Shown: piece after piece, positions 7,705-63,752 of the stretch
Position numbering within the stretch: the first letter of the stretch is position 1
Layout of the letters: each line of letters opens with the position of its first letter
From: Ancylomarina euxina
GTDB lineage: Bacteria > Bacteroidota > Bacteroidia > Bacteroidales > Marinifilaceae
Assembly: GCF_003863355.1 (NCBI RefSeq)
Contig: NZ_QQWG01000009.1
Location: 62,001-126,000 of the forward strand
Direction: 5' to 3'
DNA: 64,000 bases
The notes under the pieces: generated by a model
Told to the model about the DNA's origin: nothing
The model's database searches: none
The model's input: only the letters and a program-made list of their open reading frames with translations
Made by a program: the position numbers and the translations under genes

Positions 7705-7733
7705 TAAACAGAATGATTTAATTGGGCTTTGGA

Positions 7734-7901
7734 TAAACCTCCAAGCCTCCACTAAGAGCTTTTTGCTGCCATGGGTAAACCTCCAAGCCTCCAACTAAGG
7801 CTATTTGGAGCTATGGTTAAACCTCCAAGCCTCCAACTAAGGCTAGTTGGAGCTATGGTTAAACCTCCGAGCCTTTACCTAAGGCTAGTTGGAGCTATGA
7901 T
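7734..7901. repeat. four exact-length 42-bp tandem repeats with internal palindrome
   Basis: Units start at 7734, 7776, 7818 and 7860 and all are 42 bp. Units 2 and 3 differ by one base (ATTTGG against AGTTGG), unit 4 has a handful of changes and unit 1 is the most diverged. Each begins TAAACCTCC. Units 2 and 3 contain the dyad CCAACTA-aggc-TAGTTGG (one mismatch in unit 2). The block lies in the gap between two plus-strand genes. ORFs crossing it on either strand are repeat artefacts. Confidence 0.9.
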
Positions 7902-8148: not shown

Positions 8149-11100
8149 ATGAAAGTTGAGAAAAATTTCAGCAATGATGAAATAAAACAGTTATGGGACA
8201 CGTTTGGATCAATTTCTCAAGAAGAAATGTTTCAATGCTTCAATGTTCACCTAAGCGAACTAAATGGAATCTCCGATACCTACAAGGAATTCTATGAGTC
8301 ACTTAGCAAATCAAAAAATGAGGACAAAAACAATTTTGCTTGCTTAAGTGAGTTTAATCAATCCATACTCAAACTCTTACTAGAGAGCCAAGAAAAGATG
8401 CTTGATAGGGATTTTAGTAAGATTACTCAAACTTATTTATCCAAACTCAGCTCTTTGAGTTTAAACAAAACCATTATTCGAAGAGAGAAATTCTCTCCAT
8501 ACGTCTTTTCTAAAAAGGATAAGCTATCTGTTTTCCTCAAGAAATTGAGTATAAACTCAAAATTCACAATCAAAGTTCAAAGAAGAAAATTCTTCAACAT
8601 ATTCCGAAGAATATTTAAGATGAATCTTTTAGGTCTTGATACTTTCCAAACCCGTAAGATTCCCTATAAATATATGGTAGACTATTATTTTGGTATTCAG
8701 CTACCCAAACAAATGGCCAATAGTTTACACGAAATCATGCAAATTAAAAGTATTGTTTTATTAGACTTATGGCGATTCGATAATGATTTTGATACTGAAA
8801 TACAAAACCAATTATTAGAAATCCAAACCGATCAAATAGAACTTATTTCAGATAAATATTCAATAAACGAAGTTATTGCCATACAAAAGCAACGACTTAA
8901 TGATTTAACAGATAAACTAAAAAATGATATTACTTTAATAAATTCGACCCTGTTTGATACGCTTGACCAAGCATTACTACGAGTAGACACACCTGAAATG
9001 CCCAGAAATAAATTCCAGCCCAATAACATAAAAGCTGAACAGAACCTGTTGTTTACTACTATTGATTTAGAGAATCAGAAATGGCATAATACACATCGGA
9101 CTTTATTAGATGACTGGTCATTGGATGTTGAAATCGTACGCCTTTATTTCACTGTCCTGAGTGATTACACAGATCTACATTCAAAAATAAGCAAATTTAT
9201 AGATGAACATTTAAGCCTGAACATTGAGCAATTACGTGAATTCATAAGTGCTTCAGTCAAGCGAATTCAGGACAATGCCACTACAGCTAAGGAACTAACT
9301 CAAGTTTTAAACGAGGAAAGATCTAAAGTCTCCAATGACTTTATTGATAAAATGCTTGCCCAAACAATTAAAAAATTATCAGGGAGCATTACTCAAGATA
9401 TAGAAAAGTTTAATTCCAGAATGATCAGCCTTATCAATAATGTTTCAGACAAGCGTAGCTTTATAAAAAGTAAAAATTACGAGCGAGGCATCCGAAGTTC
9501 AGAGATCAATTGGCTATCACCTAAAGAACTTTTAAACTTTGAAGCTCTTCCTCATTTTGAAGCATCGATAAAAGAAATTAAACAATTTATTGAAGCCAAT
9601 ATGAAAAAAGCAAGAGTTAAGCTTCTTGCTATGGGAACTGTAAGTGATTTTAGTCTCGAGTCAGCTCAAATCATGTTACAAAATAAAAAAGGGGCAATAA
9701 AATCTACCGCTCAAGTTGCGGAAGAAGGTCTTAATCGTGCCTTAAGCCATTTAGATGAAGTAACAGAGCTTATGGAGGGGATAAAACAAGAACCACAGGA
9801 ACAGCTTCATCAAACCATTACAACTTTTAATACAGAGATTCAGAAACTCAAGAATATCGATACCATCCTTGAGCTGAATTTACAGATTGTGAAAATTAAG
9901 GCTATTGAACGATCAAAAAAGCTAAGAAAAGATGCCATTACTTGGATTCTGACCATTGTTCCCAGAATAATCGATTTTGTGAAAAAACATATTTCTGGCA
10001 CTACGGGCTATATTGCTGAAATAAAAAAACATCTGGGTGTAAGGGATATAAAAAAAGTACAAATCTCTCACGAGCTTCCAGAATTTATTCGCCAAACAGA
10101 ACTGGCCCTAAAAAAACTACCCTTCGTTTACCAACGCCTTTACCAGTTAACACCTACCGATGAAGATCGTTTTTTTGTTAATCGTCAGGCAGAGTTGGAG
10201 AGCTTACAAAAAGCCTTTTCTGATTGGACAAAAGATCGTTTTGTCACTACAGCACTTATTTCAGAAAAAGGGAATGGAGCGACTTCATTATTAAAGATTT
10301 TTCTAAACAAAATTGAAACTGATATTCCTATTATTCATCAATCATCAGATAAAAAGATATACAATACTCAAGCTTATCTGACATTCTTTTCTGAAATATT
10401 TGAACAAGAAAAATTTGAATCGAACGAAGAAATTATTGATTATCTAAATAATCGAACCGATTATTTGATTCTTATTATTGAGAACCTCCATCACTTTTTT
10501 ATTAAAAAAGTAAATGGATTTGAATGCCAAAAAATGCTTTTCGAACTCATGTCCAGAACTTCTAAAAAAGTATTCTGGATTGCGAGTTATACCATACATT
10601 CTTGGGAGTATCTTAAAAAGACGGTACGTGTATCCGAACATTTTACCAAAGAGATTCAACTGCAAAAGTTTGATGGTGAAATGCTGGATGAGGTTATTTT
10701 CAAACGCAATAATCTTAGTGGTTACAAGATTGAATTTGAACCATCAAAAGAAAACCTTAGCTCCAAAACCTTTCAGAAAATGAATGACGATGATAGACAA
10801 TCCTATTTAAGGAAACATTTTTTCATTGAGCTAAATCAAATGTCTAATGGAAATGTTAGTTTAGCTCAGCTATACTGGCTTCGCTCTACATGCTCGGTAA
10901 GCGATGATACTATAAACATTAGTTCTCTACGTGAAATCGATGCCTCCTTTGTTAAAGATTTACCTGCAGAACATTTATTTGCCATGCATACCATACTGAT
11001 ACACGACGGTTTAAACCTCGAAGATTATGCACTATCCTTAAACATACCTGAAAGTAATTGCGGAAATGTATTAATCCCAATGCTAGAAAAAGGTTTACTT

Positions 11101-11187
11101 ATTCGTCCTAAAGAAAAATTCAATATTAATCCTATTATATTCAGACAGGTAGTCAGTTTATTAAGCTCACACAACTTTATCAACTAA
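8149..11187 (+). CDS. large coiled-coil protein with degenerate P-loop ATPase-like domain and C-terminal winged helix
   Basis: A 1012-residue protein not recognised as any named family. Residues 1-650 are charged, helix-rich and probably coiled coil, with no signal peptide and no convincing membrane span. Residues about 670-900 look like an AAA+/STAND-type NTPase module: FFVNRQAELESL is the usual lead-in, then ALISEKGNGATSLL (705-715) sits where a Walker A belongs and YLILIIENLHHFF (772-784) where Walker B belongs. Both are degenerate: the Walker A lysine is A711, the first glycine is S705, and the Walker B acid pair reads E778-N779. The last 80 residues (LNLEDYALSLNIPE, MLEKGLLI) look like a winged helix. 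The gene is followed 10 bp later by an MscS channel gene. ATP binding or hydrolysis is doubtful. Confidence 0.6.
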   Translation: MKVEKNFSNDEIKQLWDTFGSISQEEMFQCFNVHLSELNGISDTYKEFYESLSKSKNEDKNNFACLSEFNQSILKLLLESQEKMLDRDFSKITQTYLSKLSSLSLNKTIIRREKFSPYVFSKKDKLSVFLKKLSINSKFTIKVQRRKFFNIFRRIFKMNLLGLDTFQTRKIPYKYMVDYYFGIQLPKQMANSLHEIMQIKSIVLLDLWRFDNDFDTEIQNQLLEIQTDQIELISDKYSINEVIAIQKQRLNDLTDKLKNDITLINSTLFDTLDQALLRVDTPEMPRNKFQPNNIKAEQNLLFTTIDLENQKWHNTHRTLLDDWSLDVEIVRLYFTVLSDYTDLHSKISKFIDEHLSLNIEQLREFISASVKRIQDNATTAKELTQVLNEERSKVSNDFIDKMLAQTIKKLSGSITQDIEKFNSRMISLINNVSDKRSFIKSKNYERGIRSSEINWLSPKELLNFEALPHFEASIKEIKQFIEANMKKARVKLLAMGTVSDFSLESAQIMLQNKKGAIKSTAQVAEEGLNRALSHLDEVTELMEGIKQEPQEQLHQTITTFNTEIQKLKNIDTILELNLQIVKIKAIERSKKLRKDAITWILTIVPRIIDFVKKHISGTTGYIAEIKKHLGVRDIKKVQISHELPEFIRQTELALKKLPFVYQRLYQLTPTDEDRFFVNRQAELESLQKAFSDWTKDRFVTTALISEKGNGATSLLKIFLNKIETDIPIIHQSSDKKIYNTQAYLTFFSEIFEQEKFESNEEIIDYLNNRTDYLILIIENLHHFFIKKVNGFECQKMLFELMSRTSKKVFWIASYTIHSWEYLKKTVRVSEHFTKEIQLQKFDGEMLDEVIFKRNNLSGYKIEFEPSKENLSSKTFQKMNDDDRQSYLRKHFFIELNQMSNGNVSLAQLYWLRSTCSVSDDTINISSLREIDASFVKDLPAEHLFAMHTILIHDGLNLEDYALSLNIPESNCGNVLIPMLEKGLLIRPKEKFNINPIIFRQVVSLLSSHNFIN

Positions 11188-11197
11188 TTGTATCACA

Positions 11198-12316
11198 ATG
11201 AAACATTTTACCTTTTTCCTTTTATGTCTGTTGATAGGATACTTATATCCACAAACCGCCACAGCTCAAGATACAATCCTCTTTAAGTCTCTGACAAACT
11301 GGAATGATACTTCGGTAAATGCACTTAATTTGGAAAGAATAAAGTCTGAGCCCCTTATCAAGATCAAGACGCCTGCTATAAAAAAAGACAGCTCTACATC
11401 CACTCCTGATACCATTGAGCGTGTGCAAGATAAAGTGGCAAAAGATAAAATCAATTCACATGAGCAGGACACAAACCTATTTAGTGCAAAAAATCTATTC
11501 TCTAGTTTCGAACAAAAAGTACCAAATAAACCCAAGGATGTATTAGAAGTTATTTCCTTATCAAAAATTTTCTGGACTCTCATTCTTATAATAGTAGGCT
11601 ATTATTTTATTCAATTAGTCATTAAAATTCTCTATATCTTTTCTGAACGAAGTGCTCGATTTCGTATCACTATAAAAGGTATTATTCCCGTTTTTCGGAT
11701 TCTAACTTGGGCCATCATTATTTTTGCCATTATAAAAGGCATTTACGACCCACCCTTCGAAACGGTTATCGCTTTTACCGCATCAGTTGGTATTGCTATT
11801 GGTTTGGCAGCACAAGATTTACTCAAAAATGTATTTGGTGGCATGGCCTTGCTTCTGGACAGACCCTTTATGGTCGGGGACAAAATTGACAGCGGAAAAT
11901 ATTACGGGGAAGTGATTGAAATTGGACTAAGAGCCACCAGACTGGTTACTGCAGACGATTCGGTTGTTTCAGTGCCTAATGCTGAGCTTGTAAACTCATC
12001 AGTGTCCAACTCCAACTCGGGCGAACTCAATTGCCAGGTGGTTGCAGAAATATATCTGCCTATTGATATTGACACCTTCAAAGTAAGACAAATTGCGACC
12101 GAGAGTGCTCAAGTTTCTCGATACGTTTATCTCAACAAACCCATTACGGTTCTATTTTTTAATGAGGTAAAAGAAAGACGTTCTTATCTTAAAATGAGGA
12201 TAAAAGCCTATGTGATGGATATTCGCTACGAATTTCAATTTAAAAGCGATATGACAGAAATCGTTATACGCGAACTGCTAAAAGAAGGACTTATTTCAAA
12301 GGATGAATTATTTTAA
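11198..12316 (+). CDS. mechanosensitive ion channel family protein (MscS type)
   Basis: A 372-residue inner-membrane protein. It has a signal peptide (MKHFTFFLLCLLIGYLYP, cleavage near TATAQ), a periplasmic linker to about residue 105 and then three membrane segments. The last of these is the pore helix, running into GLAAQDLLKNVFGGMALLL and DRPFMVGDKID, the MscS hallmark. A beta domain (GEVIEIGLRATRLVTADDS, VPNAELVNSSVSN) and the C-terminal alpha/beta domain follow. It opens under membrane tension and lets small solutes out. It lies 10 bp behind the ATPase-like gene, so the two are probably co-transcribed, and a bidirectional terminator closes the unit. Confidence 0.9.
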   Translation: MKHFTFFLLCLLIGYLYPQTATAQDTILFKSLTNWNDTSVNALNLERIKSEPLIKIKTPAIKKDSSTSTPDTIERVQDKVAKDKINSHEQDTNLFSAKNLFSSFEQKVPNKPKDVLEVISLSKIFWTLILIIVGYYFIQLVIKILYIFSERSARFRITIKGIIPVFRILTWAIIIFAIIKGIYDPPFETVIAFTASVGIAIGLAAQDLLKNVFGGMALLLDRPFMVGDKIDSGKYYGEVIEIGLRATRLVTADDSVVSVPNAELVNSSVSNSNSGELNCQVVAEIYLPIDIDTFKVRQIATESAQVSRYVYLNKPITVLFFNEVKERRSYLKMRIKAYVMDIRYEFQFKSDMTEIVIRELLKEGLISKDELF

Positions 12317-12324
12317 ATACCAGT

Positions 12325-12363
12325 CAAAAAAAATACCGACCTCATCAAAAGTCGGTATTTTTT
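12325..12363. terminator. bidirectional terminator between mscS-like gene and ABC-F gene
   Basis: A 9-bp stem (12332-12340 with 12351-12359) is flanked by an A run on the left and a T run on the right. It can therefore terminate both the plus-strand channel gene and the minus-strand ABC-F gene that converge here. Confidence 0.85.
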
Positions 12364-12381: not shown

Positions 12382-14247
12382 TTAATTTCCAATTTCACTT
12401 AACTCTAACCAACGCATTTCTTTTTCGTCAATCAAATCCATGACTTCTTGTATACGAGCCGATTTGATCATTAAATCCTCATTAGATAAAGTTCCAGAGC
12501 TCATTGCTTTTTCGATAGCATCTTTTTCCACATTCAAGCTTTCCATATCCTTTTCTAATTGTTCAAACTCCCGCTTCTCATTGAAAGTCATCTTGGTTTT
12601 GGTGCTCTGCTTTGGTTTTTCCTTCTTTACTTTCACTGGTTTTTCAATCTGCTTCTGCTCCAACTCTTCTTCCTCAAGAGTATCTCTATAAATGGTATAG
12701 TTGCCTGGGAAATTTCTGATTTGCCCCTGCCCTTCAAACACAAACATATGCTCAACCACCTTATCCATAAAGTAACGGTCGTGAGATACAATAATTAAAC
12801 AGCCTTTAAAATTCATCAGATAATCCTCCAGAACATTCAGAGTCATAATATCCAAATCATTGGTAGGCTCATCCAAAATCAGGAAGTTTGGATTTTTCAT
12901 CAAAACCGTCATCAGATAAAGTCGGCGTTTTTCGCCCCCACTCAACTTCGATACCAGGTTATACTGTGTTTTGGTTGGGAAGAGAAAATACTCCAAAAAT
13001 TGAGAGGCAGACATCACTTTACCATTACCCAAGTCGATACTTTCAGCAATTTCTTTGATGACTTCAATTATTTTCTGATTCTCGTTGATGTTCATACCAT
13101 CCTGCTTATAGTAGCCGTAGACAACAGTCTCACCAATTTCGATATTTCCAGAGTCAGCCTCAATATTTTGAGTAATGATATTCAAGAATGTCGATTTTCC
13201 TGTTCCATTCTTTCCGATAATCCCAATCTTCTCACCTCTTTGGAATTTATAGGAGAAGTCCTTTAAGATCTTCAAATCACCAAAGCTCTTATTCAAATGT
13301 TCGAATTCGAGTATTTTGGTTCCCAATCGAGCAGATTTAATATCAAGATCCATTTTATCCTCACGATAACTATTACTCGCCTTTTCCTTTAATTCATAGA
13401 AGGCATCAATTCTCGACTTAGCCTTTGTAGCACGCGCCTGAGGCATGCGTCGCATCCACTCCTGCTCAGTTTTCAGTAAACTTTTAGCTTTACCAGCCTC
13501 AGCATTCTGATTATGAATTCTTTCTTCACGCTTTTCCAAATAGTAGGTGTAATTCCCCTTATATGAATGAATACTAGTAGCATCCATTTCAATAATCTCG
13601 TTACATACTCTATCAAGAAAATACCTATCGTGAGTCACCATTAAAAGAGTGCCTTTAGATTTCTTCAAGTATTCTTCTAACCATTCAATCATCTCTAGAT
13701 CCAAATGGTTAGTTGGCTCATCGAGCATTAGGAAGTCAGGATCAGTAATCAGCACCTTAGCCATACCAATACGCTTTTTCTGCCCACCAGAAAGCTGAGA
13801 AATTGGCTGATCGAAGTTGGTAATCTTCAGCTTAGAAAGAATCTGCTTTACCTTTACTTCATAATCCCAGGCTTTGTGCAAATCCATCTTTTCGAGAATC
13901 TCAGTCATACCCTCTTCCTGACCCGAGTCAATCATCCTTTCATAATCTCGAATGACAGATAATACAGGATCAGCTGAATTGAACAACTCATTGATAACTG
14001 TATTATTTTCATTCATTTCAGGAATCTGCTCCAAATAACCCAACTTAATATCTTTACGAAAAGACATCTCCCCACTATCTGGACTATCTTTTCCCGCAAT
14101 AATATTTAAGAGCGAGGTTTTTCCCGTTCCATTTTTAGCTATCAGAGCAATCTTTTGTCCCTGCCCAACACCAAAATTAATGTCGGTGAATAAAATCTTA
14201 TCACCGTAGCTTTTGCTAAAGTTTTCTATTTGTAAGTATGATATCAT
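12382..14247 (-). CDS. ABC-F family ATP-binding protein (Uup-like)
   Basis: A 621-residue soluble protein with two ABC ATPase domains and no membrane segments. Walker A motifs are AKNGTGKTS (about 36-44) and GKNGTGKST (about 346-354). The signatures are LSGGQKKR and LSGGEKRR, and the Walker B motifs are FLMLDEPTNHLD and FLILDEPTNDLD. The linker between domains and a Lys/Glu-rich coiled-coil tail (about 535-621) fit the Uup branch of ABC-F proteins, which act on ribosomes or branched DNA intermediates. A resistance-type ABC-F cannot be excluded, but the genomic setting is housekeeping. A perfect -7 element (complement at 14273-14281) lies 25 bp upstream. Confidence 0.9.
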   Translation of the reverse strand: MISYLQIENFSKSYGDKILFTDINFGVGQGQKIALIAKNGTGKTSLLNIIAGKDSPDSGEMSFRKDIKLGYLEQIPEMNENNTVINELFNSADPVLSVIRDYERMIDSGQEEGMTEILEKMDLHKAWDYEVKVKQILSKLKITNFDQPISQLSGGQKKRIGMAKVLITDPDFLMLDEPTNHLDLEMIEWLEEYLKKSKGTLLMVTHDRYFLDRVCNEIIEMDATSIHSYKGNYTYYLEKREERIHNQNAEAGKAKSLLKTEQEWMRRMPQARATKAKSRIDAFYELKEKASNSYREDKMDLDIKSARLGTKILEFEHLNKSFGDLKILKDFSYKFQRGEKIGIIGKNGTGKSTFLNIITQNIEADSGNIEIGETVVYGYYKQDGMNINENQKIIEVIKEIAESIDLGNGKVMSASQFLEYFLFPTKTQYNLVSKLSGGEKRRLYLMTVLMKNPNFLILDEPTNDLDIMTLNVLEDYLMNFKGCLIIVSHDRYFMDKVVEHMFVFEGQGQIRNFPGNYTIYRDTLEEEELEQKQIEKPVKVKKEKPKQSTKTKMTFNEKREFEQLEKDMESLNVEKDAIEKAMSSGTLSNEDLMIKSARIQEVMDLIDEKEMRWLELSEIGN

Positions 14248-14400: not shown

Positions 14401-15252
14401 TTATAATTCGGTCACAACGTAAGCTTCTTGCCAAACTTTTGACATGATACTATATGAAATCCATCCAAAACCATCGGTTCCCCATGAAGTTCCCCAAGAA
14501 TTAATGACTTTAAAAGCATTCTTAGTATCATCATAACCCACAACACAATAACAATGTCCTCCTAAATTTCTACCTCTTGCAGAAGTTTGGATTTCACCAT
14601 AACCAAGATTCATAAATGTTTTATAAACAGAACCCCCAACTACAATTGGCTTACCAGCTGCTAACTGATCCTTAAAAGCATCAAGGGTTACAGATAAACG
14701 AGTGTAATTTGCAATCTTATAATTTGCAGCTAAAGCGGCCTGATTATTATCAGGATACAAATCACAAGAAACGTCAGTGTATGGCATATTAGCCCATAAA
14801 CAAACACCTTGATCTTGAATTAAATTCAAACCACTTGTTACATAGGAACCGCTGCCGCAGTCACCTACCTTAATTTGGTTGTAAATGAATTCTGGGCTAA
14901 AAATATTGTAATCTAAGCTATAAGCGCCTCCATTAAGGGATTGCCAGGAAATACTTCTTGCAGCATAACCTACTCCCCAAGAAACACATGAACCTTCACC
15001 TCCTTGATTTCTAACAGGGGGACAGTTAAGTGCTACTGAAGTTGGATAGGCTTTAGTTTTACTGATAGCTCCAGCTAAAGGGATTTTATTGTATTCTGCC
15101 TCAGGTAATGGTAAATAACCTGTATTTATACTTACTTCCTGAATGGCTTCTTCCTGAATTTCATTTTCAGAATTATCACAAGAAGGGAAAGAAAGAATTA
15201 GGGTAGCTGCTGAAAAAACCAACAATGTTGATCTTAAAAATAATTTTTTCAT
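14401..15252 (-). CDS. papain-like (C1A) cysteine peptidase, lipoprotein
   Basis: A 283-residue secreted protease. A type II signal peptide ends in the lipobox SFPSC (lipidated C25). The catalytic set of papain is complete: NQGGEGSCVSWGVGY gives C89, GGHCYCVVGYDD gives H233 and FKVINSWGTSWGTDG gives N251. The usual GSCWAF is SCVSWGVG here. The pro-region is very short (about 50 residues between lipid anchor and mature domain), so a classical inhibitory propeptide seems absent. No type IX secretion C-terminal domain is present; the anchor points to the outer membrane or cell surface. It looks monocistronic, with a terminator after it and a 490-bp AT-rich gap before it. Confidence 0.9.
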   Translation of the reverse strand: MKKLFLRSTLLVFSAATLILSFPSCDNSENEIQEEAIQEVSINTGYLPLPEAEYNKIPLAGAISKTKAYPTSVALNCPPVRNQGGEGSCVSWGVGYAARSISWQSLNGGAYSLDYNIFSPEFIYNQIKVGDCGSGSYVTSGLNLIQDQGVCLWANMPYTDVSCDLYPDNNQAALAANYKIANYTRLSVTLDAFKDQLAAGKPIVVGGSVYKTFMNLGYGEIQTSARGRNLGGHCYCVVGYDDTKNAFKVINSWGTSWGTDGFGWISYSIMSKVWQEAYVVTEL

Positions 15253-63230: not shown

Positions 63231-63334
63231 TTAAAACTCATCTTCCTATAAAATTTAGGCAAAAAAAATAGGATCAATTCCGAAGAAACAATCCTAATAT
63301 TTTTATACGCATTAAATTCTAAATGAATTTTCTG

Positions 63335-63407
63335 AGCGAGAAACGAGACTCGAACTCGCGACCCCAACCTTGGCAAGGTTGTGCTCTACCAACTGAGCTA
63401 TTCTCGC
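63335..63407 (-). tRNA. tRNA-Gly (anticodon GCC), copy 4 in transcription order
   Basis: 73 nt cloverleaf on the minus strand: acceptor GCGAGAA/TTCTCGC, anticodon stem CAACC/GGTTG around loop TTGCCAA (anticodon GCC), T loop GTTCGAGTC, discriminator T. The CCA end is not encoded. Last of the four copies from the shared promoter. Confidence 0.97.
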
Positions 63408-63448
63408 AATTTCTTTTTTTTATTTAATCAGAAAAGAAAAACTGACCG

Positions 63449-63521
63449 AGCGAGAAACGAGACTCGAACTCGCGACCCCAACCTTGGCAAGGTTGTGCTC
63501 TACCAACTGAGCTATTCTCGC
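63449..63521 (-). tRNA. tRNA-Gly (anticodon GCC), copy 3 in transcription order
   Basis: Same 73-nt sequence as its neighbours: anticodon loop TTGCCAA, acceptor GCGAGAA/TTCTCGC. Only flanking bases differ (CCG before the tRNA end, where other copies have TTG or CTG). Confidence 0.97.
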
Positions 63522-63563
63522 ATTTCTTTTTTTTAATTTAATCAGAAAAGAAAAACTGATTTG

Positions 63564-63636
63564 AGCGAGAAACGAGACTCGAACTCGCGACCCCAACCTT
63601 GGCAAGGTTGTGCTCTACCAACTGAGCTATTCTCGC
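63564..63636 (-). tRNA. tRNA-Gly (anticodon GCC), copy 2 in transcription order
   Basis: Same 73-nt sequence as the other three copies, with anticodon GCC. It sits 115 bp from the copy starting at 63449. Confidence 0.97.
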
Positions 63637-63679
63637 ATTTCTTTTTTTTTAATTTAATCAGAAAAGAAAAACTGATTTG

Positions 63680-63752
63680 AGCGAGAAACGAGACTCGAAC
63701 TCGCGACCCCAACCTTGGCAAGGTTGTGCTCTACCAACTGAGCTATTCTCGC
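63680..63752 (-). tRNA. tRNA-Gly (anticodon GCC), copy 1 in transcription order
   Basis: Same 73-nt cloverleaf as the other copies. It is nearest the promoter at 63833-63863, so it is transcribed first. The leader contains an inverted repeat TTCTCAAT/ATTGAGAA at about 63766-63785. Confidence 0.97.

Follow-up and report, generated by a model that had tools for sequence, protein, structure and literature searches.

A predicted AAA+-like protein encoded beside an MscS-type channel gene in Ancylomarina euxina, with a possible role in osmotic and ionic homeostasis

The genes for a large soluble protein and an MscS-type channel lie next to each other in the window (the whole 64,000-nucleotide stretch that was analysed, from Ancylomarina euxina, a species of a marine genus), and this pairing proved near-obligate throughout the family of the large protein. 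We read the large protein as a dedicated AAA+ regulator (in the window a pseudo-AAA+ one) of ion channels and transporters, acting in osmotic or ionic homeostasis. Our results show the pairing and the predicted fold, the family with its neighbourhood, and the links of relatives to transporters, while binding and gating are inferred; we set the probability of the reading at roughly 0.6. The sequence-only reading had described a conserved pair without a name and had offered a cytoplasmic gate, scaffold or stress sensor as its possible role. The two open reading frames, their lengths and their 10-bp spacing were confirmed by the ORF coordinates, and the conserved unnamed pair was supported; the proposed roles remain possible, with physical contact and gating inferred only. 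The features are collected in Table 1.

Table 1. Features of the two-gene unit in the window
Feature	Coordinates	Strand	Basis
Large soluble regulator protein, 1012 aa	8149..11187	+	ORF; no membrane helix by hydropathy
N-terminal long-helix/coiled-coil region, residues 1-640	8149..10068	+	AlphaFold2 model, N-terminal profile
AAA+ domain, ORC/Cdc6/TnsC-like fold, residues 655-930	10111..10938	+	Structure comparison
Degenerate Walker A, residues 705-713, SEKGNGATS	10261..10287	+	Alignments of relatives
Degenerate Walker B, residues 773-779, LILIIEN	10465..10485	+	Alignment
Winged-helix domain, C-terminal, residues 933-1012	10945..11184	+	Model secondary structure; profile matches
MscS-type channel, 372 aa, intact pore-helix signature	11198..12316	+	PF00924; model; solved MscS-family sequences
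Signal-peptide-like N-terminus, channel residues 1-23	11198..11266	+	Sequence, by eye
Pore helix TM3, residues 187-221, Ala/Gly-rich stretch and Gln206-Asp207	11756..11860	+	Model
Terminator-like hairpin, possibly bidirectional	12328..12363	+	13-bp stem, RNA folding

Fold and nucleotide motifs of the large protein

In the AlphaFold2 model of the 1012-aa protein (mean pLDDT 87.0, pTM 0.67), residues 10-615 are mostly taken up by long helices (10-57, 173-224, 291-375, 458-512, 517-568 and 570-615). These are followed by an AAA+ core, spanning roughly residues 655-930, and by a winged helix from about 933 to 1012. The predicted core with its lid aligned with 7jgr_G at a VIA-align Z of 16.3 (rmsd 3.2, 246 residues aligned), and Foldseek gave a match to 7tji_I with an E value of 3.6e-07. 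The closest folds of the AAA+ domain in the structure search were DNA-binding initiators and TnsC, and the profile search matched the winged-helix region to MarR/SlyA-type and other winged-helix regulators (best E value 2.1e-4). The long coiled-coil N-terminus and winged-helix-like C-terminus claimed earlier thus held by structure prediction, which specified the NTPase-like module as an ORC/Cdc6-like AAA+ domain. The fold-search list was filled by this domain, and we do not claim that the N-terminal helices have no known fold.

For the large window protein, Pfam, NCBIfam and PADLOC gave only matches below the curated cut-offs, so that the assignment to a known unrelated family which would have spoken against the unit was not obtained; several relatives pass the Pfam AAA_22 or AAA cut-off, unlike the window copy. 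As the family models were sub-threshold for the window copy, the relatives were collected by whole-genome search. Neither an SLC12 match nor any transporter part was found in the window protein by Pfam and hydropathy. The dN/dS of the protein was 0.081-0.099 against three congeners, showing purifying selection, with dS being saturated.

In the Walker A motif of the window copy, glycine is replaced by serine at position 705 and lysine by alanine at 711; in Walker B, E778 takes the place of the first aspartate and N779 that of the second acid. The Walker A lysine was lost in 70 of the 106 stand-alone (type I) members, the window copy among them, and was retained in the remaining 36, in all 31 members of type II, all 6 of type III, none of the 12 of type IV and 3 of the 5 of type V. 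The degradation of both motifs noted earlier therefore applies to the window copy and many relatives, and not to the whole family. The AAA+ domain of the Ancylomarina lineage is inferred from its sequence to lack the residues for normal ATP binding and hydrolysis. It also becomes testable what maintains the AAA fold under selection in the many members that have lost the ATP site.

The MscS-type channel and conservation of the pair

The 372-aa protein matched PF00924 with 65.1 bits (cut-off 20.2, E value 6.1e-18) and solved MscS-family sequences at about 1e-14, confirming the MscS identity given by the sequence-only reading. The model predicted membrane helices at residues 121-149, 153-183 and 187-221 together with beta and alpha/beta domains, and its comparison gave a Z of 14.8 with MscK (rmsd 7.1) and 14.6 with MscS (rmsd 3.6 over 181 residues). 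The signal peptide also claimed for the channel rests on inspection by eye and is followed by a low-confidence stretch; most of the type I partner channels inspected share such starts, likewise judged by eye. The small gene is thus predicted by the model to encode an MscS-fold channel with a normal-looking pore, and its opening by tension is inferred. Gln206 and Asp207 were present in 102 of the 102 type I partners scored, and the pore-helix signature was retained in the partners of types I and IV and lost in those where a transporter is attached to the regulator. The pore helix has an Ala/Gly/Ser fraction of 0.28-0.61 in type I and of 0.11-0.39 in type II, two overlapping ranges; the sharper mark is the Gln after the helix, a column that depends on aligning very divergent type II helices.

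Downstream of the channel gene, the hairpin had a folding energy of -14.4 kcal/mol (z -6.76), and none of 200 shuffles was equally stable. It had been missed by the pattern scanner because its loop is 10 nt long and the scanner takes 3-8. The proposal of one terminator for the two genes held as a structure, although the convergent gene at 12382-14247 ends there as well, so that the hairpin may serve both. The promoter scan was uninformative (19 matches against 21.4 in shuffles), and there was no transporter beside the window locus. A single-ORF fusion of the large protein with MscS was absent in 101 loci, with no ORF matching both models.

The large-protein family comprised 160 distinct members, the window included, of which 150 had an MscS gene as a same-strand neighbour, with a gap of at most 75 bp in 144 of the paired loci and an overlap in 58. 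Homologues found mostly without an MscS neighbour would have refuted the pair as a unit; given 150 of 160, this was not the case, and the neighbourhood search showed the pair to be conserved. The MscS gene lay downstream in 138 loci and upstream in 12, and 137 and 13 are the truer numbers after correction of L145, which had been labelled type I with MscS downstream because an over-long ORF covers its MscS gene and which really has the reversed, type IV order. No MscS neighbour was found despite sufficient room at five loci, of which L045, L064 and L067 are SLC12-fused, L046 falls in the type II clade but has no transporter part, and L213 is stand-alone.

The matching MscS subfamily occurred in 10 of 295 genomes of the order, in all ten beside the large gene, scoring 443.8-492.1 bits, with the next listed match at 120.7 bits. 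For this count, seven first-look candidates were scored per genome and matches were taken to E<=1e-30, leaving weaker relatives uncounted. The own genome contains six MscS places at E<=0.001, from which a chance adjacency well below 1% per locus was estimated, without a control. Chance adjacency was rejected by the 150 of 160 pairings and the 10 of 10 co-occurrences of the subfamily.

The partner channels formed two clades (56 leaves with support 0.877, and 35 leaves with 0.899), neither containing any of 20 other MscS proteins. The distances of the large protein and MscS were correlated (r 0.73, 91 pairs, 0 of 999 shuffles). Co-occurrence and correlated distances are also expected from operon inheritance alone. 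The gene order around the pair was similar in several, not all, of the Ancylomarina, Fulvivirga and Balneolia loci, as judged from gene lengths only.

The samples behind these counts were defined as follows. Regions were taken for 39 of the 46 non-window matches, 51 of the 87 of a further set and 9 of the 9 new ones. L155 (a fragment) and L068 (overlapping L034) were excluded from both the 160-member set and the 178-locus set used below; the former also excludes proteins shorter than 330 aa and merges 19 repeated loci, which the latter counts twice. L046 (no SLC12 part, AAA domain in the type II clade), L052 (cut by a contig end) and L056 (split) were set to type II by hand, as was L141 to type III (11 hydrophobic segments, TrkH adjacent, no antiporter match).

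Transporters fused to or beside the relatives

An SLC12-type cotransporter was fused to the regulator in 29 of 178 loci and a Na+/H+-exchanger-type (antiporter) domain in 5 of 178. In the type II relatives the SLC12-type transporter stands N-terminal to the regulator, and TrkH/TrkA genes adjoin the type III loci. These identities were assigned by Pfam; the K-Cl cotransporter model TIGR00930 was matched at 9e-123, yet below its own cut-off. The osmotic link, which the sequence-only reading had called speculation, is now supported by these fusions and operons in the relatives.

Transporter models matched 24 of 580 same-strand genes at most three places away, compared with 0 of 553 farther genes. 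As the models were built from members of the same loci (six SLC12, six antiporter, three TrkH and one TrkA), part of the near count results from the way they were made. The count includes one repeat (L033 is the same as L179) and the other half of the split type II gene (L056), and ignores opposite-strand neighbours within three places.

In 5 of 6 type III proteins the N-terminal profile aligned to the segment that separates the membrane part from the AAA domain; among the 31 type II proteins only 2 gave a match at E<1e-5, and coiled-coil matches may be spurious. In the MscS tree, the type III partners fell together with those of types II and V (0.899). In the AAA tree, which we chose to root on type V, the type III AAA domains joined those of types I and IV (0.777), and the I-plus-IV split there had a support of only 0.38. 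The two trees thus disagree on the placement of type III, which goes against a neat picture.

Proposed role, rival explanations and known systems

In the reading that we prefer, both genes would form a dedicated ion-channel module for osmotic or ionic homeostasis. The large protein would be its cytoplasmic regulator or scaffold, made of a long-helix arm, the ORC/Cdc6-like AAA+ domain and the winged helix; in the wider family the regulator would be fused to or stand beside K+/Na+/Cl- transporters, with an MscS-fold partner. It is inferred to bind the MscS assembly from the cytoplasm, perhaps forming a ring beneath the cage of the channel. It may then set when the channel opens in response to ionic strength, to crowding or to some other cue from the cytoplasm, and in Ancylomarina euxina this would proceed without ATP hydrolysis. 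Against this reading stand the five loci that lack an MscS neighbour, the type I members keeping the Walker lysine (36/106), the absence of an adjacent transporter in the window and the possibility that the winged helix binds DNA.

A bolder version, which we hold to fall short of an even chance when taken as one joint claim, sees client-swapping AAA+/MscS regulatory cores in two forms. In the transporter form the ATP site would usually be kept and the MscS pore helix lost, MscS serving as a scaffold; in the channel form the core would serve MscS itself, with the pore kept and the ATP site often lost, and the window would be a channel form with a dead ATPase. It is untrue that one part is always broken: the lysine and the pore are both retained in 36 members of type I.

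Among the rivals, an assembly or quality-control factor that aids folding, assembly or clustering of the channel or transporter without gating remains possible. The near-obligate partner, the long helical scaffold and the ATP-dead AAA core agree with it, as do chaperone-like AAA proteins low in the match lists (BCS1 at E 0.057 in the profile list, CbbX at rank 44 in the structure list). On the other hand, the ATP site is lost in most type I members (70/106), and the permanent transporter fusions of relatives are more in keeping with a standing regulatory domain than with a transient chaperone.

A transcriptional co-regulator, in which a DNA-binding winged helix and an ORC-like AAA switch would act on osmotic genes with MscS merely co-transcribed, is unlikely. 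The nearest folds and the MarR/SlyA-type profile matches speak for it. The module is covalently joined to a membrane transporter in types II and III, a fact that lowers the likelihood of a DNA role without excluding it, and winged helices of AAA+ proteins can be protein contacts.

The link to defence had also been called speculation, and a STAND-like sensor with an MscS effector that would leak ions and arrest the infected cell is improbable: some relatives have sub-threshold nSTAND or NACHT matches and channels can act as effectors, but PADLOC (of 2023) matched neither window protein (one copy each), 0 of 72,556 plasmids and 0 of 50,697 phages carried the module, gene order is similar around several loci, and transporter fusions are hard to square with defence. 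A plasmid- or phage-borne module was thereby rejected for the collections searched.

The salt-transporter fusions of the relatives point to a possibly undescribed control of cell salt and water balance. If the preferred reading is true, bacteria would possess a link, under the control of a protein, from the uptake of salt to emergency release; if the bolder version also held, the two would be joined by a kind of osmotic control machine that has not been described so far.

Each part comes from a known superfamily, and no named system for the pair was found in the family databases or in the open-access PubMed Central literature searched (subscription papers and bioRxiv being outside the scope). 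With MscS, MscK and YnaI of E. coli, the window channel shares three TM helices, an Ala/Gly-rich pore helix and the beta and alpha/beta domains; it differs from that family in its signal-peptide-like start, its separate partner clade and the adjoining large regulator. The general view is that membrane tension by itself opens MscS channels. With ORC/Cdc6 and TnsC-type AAA+ proteins, the large protein shares the fold of its AAA+ core (Z about 14-16) and the order of AAA followed by winged helix, whereas the window copy lacks the Walker A lysine and second Walker B acid, has long N-terminal helices, and the genetic partner here is a membrane channel or transporter. An SLC12-type transporter, as in NKCC/KCC, is carried only by the type II relatives and not by the window protein; to our knowledge, an AAA+ tail has not been reported for any SLC12 protein. 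In the KefC/KefF and Ktr/Trk systems, too, an ion pathway has its own soluble regulator; the window unit differs from them in having an AAA+-like regulator in place of one of the TrkA/RCK type, and an MscS-type channel.

The unit and its predicted fold

The unit in the window consists of a gene for a large protein and an MscS gene, closed by a hairpin whose stability was equalled by none of 200 shuffled sequences. The 372-aa product was identified as an MscS channel by its match to PF00924 (6.1e-18), and it matched MscS, MscK and YnaI structures both by sequence and by predicted structure. Comparison with three congeners showed 40-46% identity in the fast-evolving residues 1-110 of the channel and 92-94% in residues 111-372.

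Features of the unit and of its surroundings, in window coordinates
Feature	Position	Strand	Description
Tandem array 5' of the large gene	7722-7899		42-bp unit, 4.3 copies, 87% matches
Large-protein ORF	8149-11187	+	1012 aa
MscS ORF	11198-12316	+	372 aa; 10 bp after the large-protein ORF
Channel residues 1-110	11198-11527
Hairpin closing the unit	12328-12363		13-bp stem and T run; -14.4 kcal/mol
Papain-like cysteine peptidase near the unit	14401-15252		PF00112, 2.3e-13; lipoprotein-like start by eye
tRNA-Gly(GCC)	63334-63752		four genes in tandem

The large protein of the window passed the cut-off of no Pfam, NCBIfam or PADLOC family; the Pfam cut-off for AAA_22 or AAA was passed by several relatives (loci L031, L033, L041, L050 and L150). 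Structure prediction with AlphaFold2 on an alignment of 70 proteins gave a model with a mean pLDDT of 87.0. In this model, the N-terminal 640 residues form mainly long helices, and residues 655-930 form a predicted AAA+ domain closest to ORC/Cdc6 and TnsC (Z 16.3, rmsd 3.2 over 246 residues against 7jgr_G), followed by a winged helix. The earlier description of the P-loop as dead-looking held for the window copy, whose Walker A and Walker B sequences are SEKGNGATS and LILIIEN. The dead domain nevertheless remains under purifying selection within the genus, as two of three comparisons gave dN/dS values of 0.042 and 0.054; dS was saturated in all three, and in the third was beyond measure.

Near-obligate pairing with MscS

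Relatives of the large protein were found in 44 of 295 genomes of the order (E<=1e-3), 83 of 395 of the phylum (E<=1e-5) and 14 of 58 nearest relatives, the own genome being counted in each, and a scan of named genomes kept 80 of 111 confirmed loci. The regions examined covered part of the matches (39/46 for the order, 51/87 for the phylum and 9/9 new ones for the nearest relatives), and merging of repeats left 160 distinct proteins, including that of the window. A same-strand MscS gene lay within 600 bp of the regulator in 150 of them, scored as downstream in 138 and upstream in 12, although L145, among the 138, is truly upstream. Three of the ten others stop at a contig edge (L005, L043 and L175), in two the MscS place is taken by a gene of 185-187 aa whose product has three hydrophobic segments (L153 and L154), and the remaining five are genuine exceptions (L045, L046, L064, L067 and L213). 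The named set alone gave 77 of 80, with two of the three misses at contig edges.

In the reverse search, 10 of the 295 genomes from the order contained the partner MscS subfamily, at 443.8-492.1 bits; the match listed after these had 120.7 bits, and all ten genes adjoin the large gene. A stand-alone large gene also occurs in an eleventh genome of that set, G110, whose contig ends inside the MscS gene. The pairing is near-obligate among the genomes searched, and a finding that would have refuted the sequence-only reading, homologues mostly without an MscS neighbour, was not made in the neighbourhood search.

The large gene was present in four of five Ancylomarina genomes, own included. Among the named genera that carry it are Marinifilum, Labilibaculum, Natronoflexus, Alkalitalea, Fulvivirga, Polaribacter, Fodinibius and Gracilimonas, and it also occurs in MAGs assigned to Ignavibacteriaceae, Calditrichaeota and Nitrospirota. 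The named genera live for the most part in marine, saline or soda-lake habitats, an observation made without a background comparison. No tblastn match was obtained in 72,556 plasmids or 50,697 phages. By eye, an MscL-like gene (8411-8875) lies two genes downstream in L213, the sole stand-alone locus with room for an MscS neighbour yet lacking one.

Architectures, transporters and loss of the ATP site

Architectures of the regulator loci
Type	Architecture	Proteins
I (window)	stand-alone regulator, mostly ~1000 aa, then MscS	106
II	~1700 aa with N-terminal SLC12-type transporter, followed by a short protein of MscS fold (median 243 aa)	31
III	~1500 aa, membrane part in front	6
IV	reversed gene order, MscS first	12
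V	749-812 aa; short gene next; then separate antiporter gene in 5/5	5

An SLC12 match was obtained for 29 of the 31 type II proteins. Five of the six type III proteins matched a Na+/H+-exchanger domain, and the same five had TrkH and TrkA downstream; in the sixth, L141, the membrane part was unidentified, and TrkH and TrkA lay upstream. As the N-terminal region of the window type aligned over much of its length in 5/6 type III proteins, between membrane part and AAA domain, a type III protein seems to be a complete type I protein to which a transporter has been joined. A 414-aa membrane protein is encoded directly 5' of the type III fusion gene in L040 (3243-4487), with same-length genes in L128, L132, L139 and L140; the L040 copy, the only one scanned, had no Pfam match. 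The short gene of type V was MscS-like in 3/5. The own genome carries such a locus as a second system (L150, 5225-9645 of G000:C47), encoding an 812-aa AAA protein with an intact Walker lysine, a 237-aa MscS-like protein and a Na+/H+-exchanger-type antiporter. Some type I loci (L179, L180 and L191) immediately follow antiporter or TrkA-TrkH-antiporter genes. Of 580 same-strand genes no more than three places from the regulator, 24 matched a transporter model, versus none of 553 farther genes, a count to be read with the derivation of the models from these very loci in mind.

The Walker A lysine was retained in 36/106 type I, 31/31 type II, 6/6 type III, 0/12 type IV and 3/5 type V proteins. 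The Gln that follows the Ala/Gly-rich stretch of the pore was retained in all scored partners of types I (102/102) and IV (12/12), but only in 1/26, 0/6 and 0/3 of types II, III and V. In systems with an attached transporter this Gln is nearly always lost, so their MscS part is probably no longer a normal channel, an inference from sequence alone. A good-looking MscS channel, in turn, goes with frequent loss of the ATP site. No scored pair had lost both marks; the two type V members in which Arg replaces Lys had no scored partner and fall outside this count.

Proposed mechanism and relation to known systems

No description of an AAA-type MscS partner or SLC12-AAA fusion was found in the open-access literature searched (titles and abstract openings). 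The parts belong to known superfamilies and, within this limit, the whole system is apparently unnamed; since its novelty rests on the lack of a name or description, it would fall if literature elsewhere describes the system.

The analysis shows the unit itself, its predicted fold, the family, the pairing and the links between relatives and transporters; the binding, gating and platform roles that follow are inferred, with no binding or gating data. The regulator would bind the cytoplasmic face of the MscS-fold oligomer, which it would gate in types I and IV, and which would serve in types II, III and V as its platform for transporter control. ATP hydrolysis of the usual type is unlikely to be the cue in the window system, for which ionic strength, crowding or a bound ligand would be candidates. 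MscS is a heptamer, and one TnsC entry among the structural matches (7ufi) is also a heptamer, so that a regulator ring matching MscS is conceivable, albeit as a guess.
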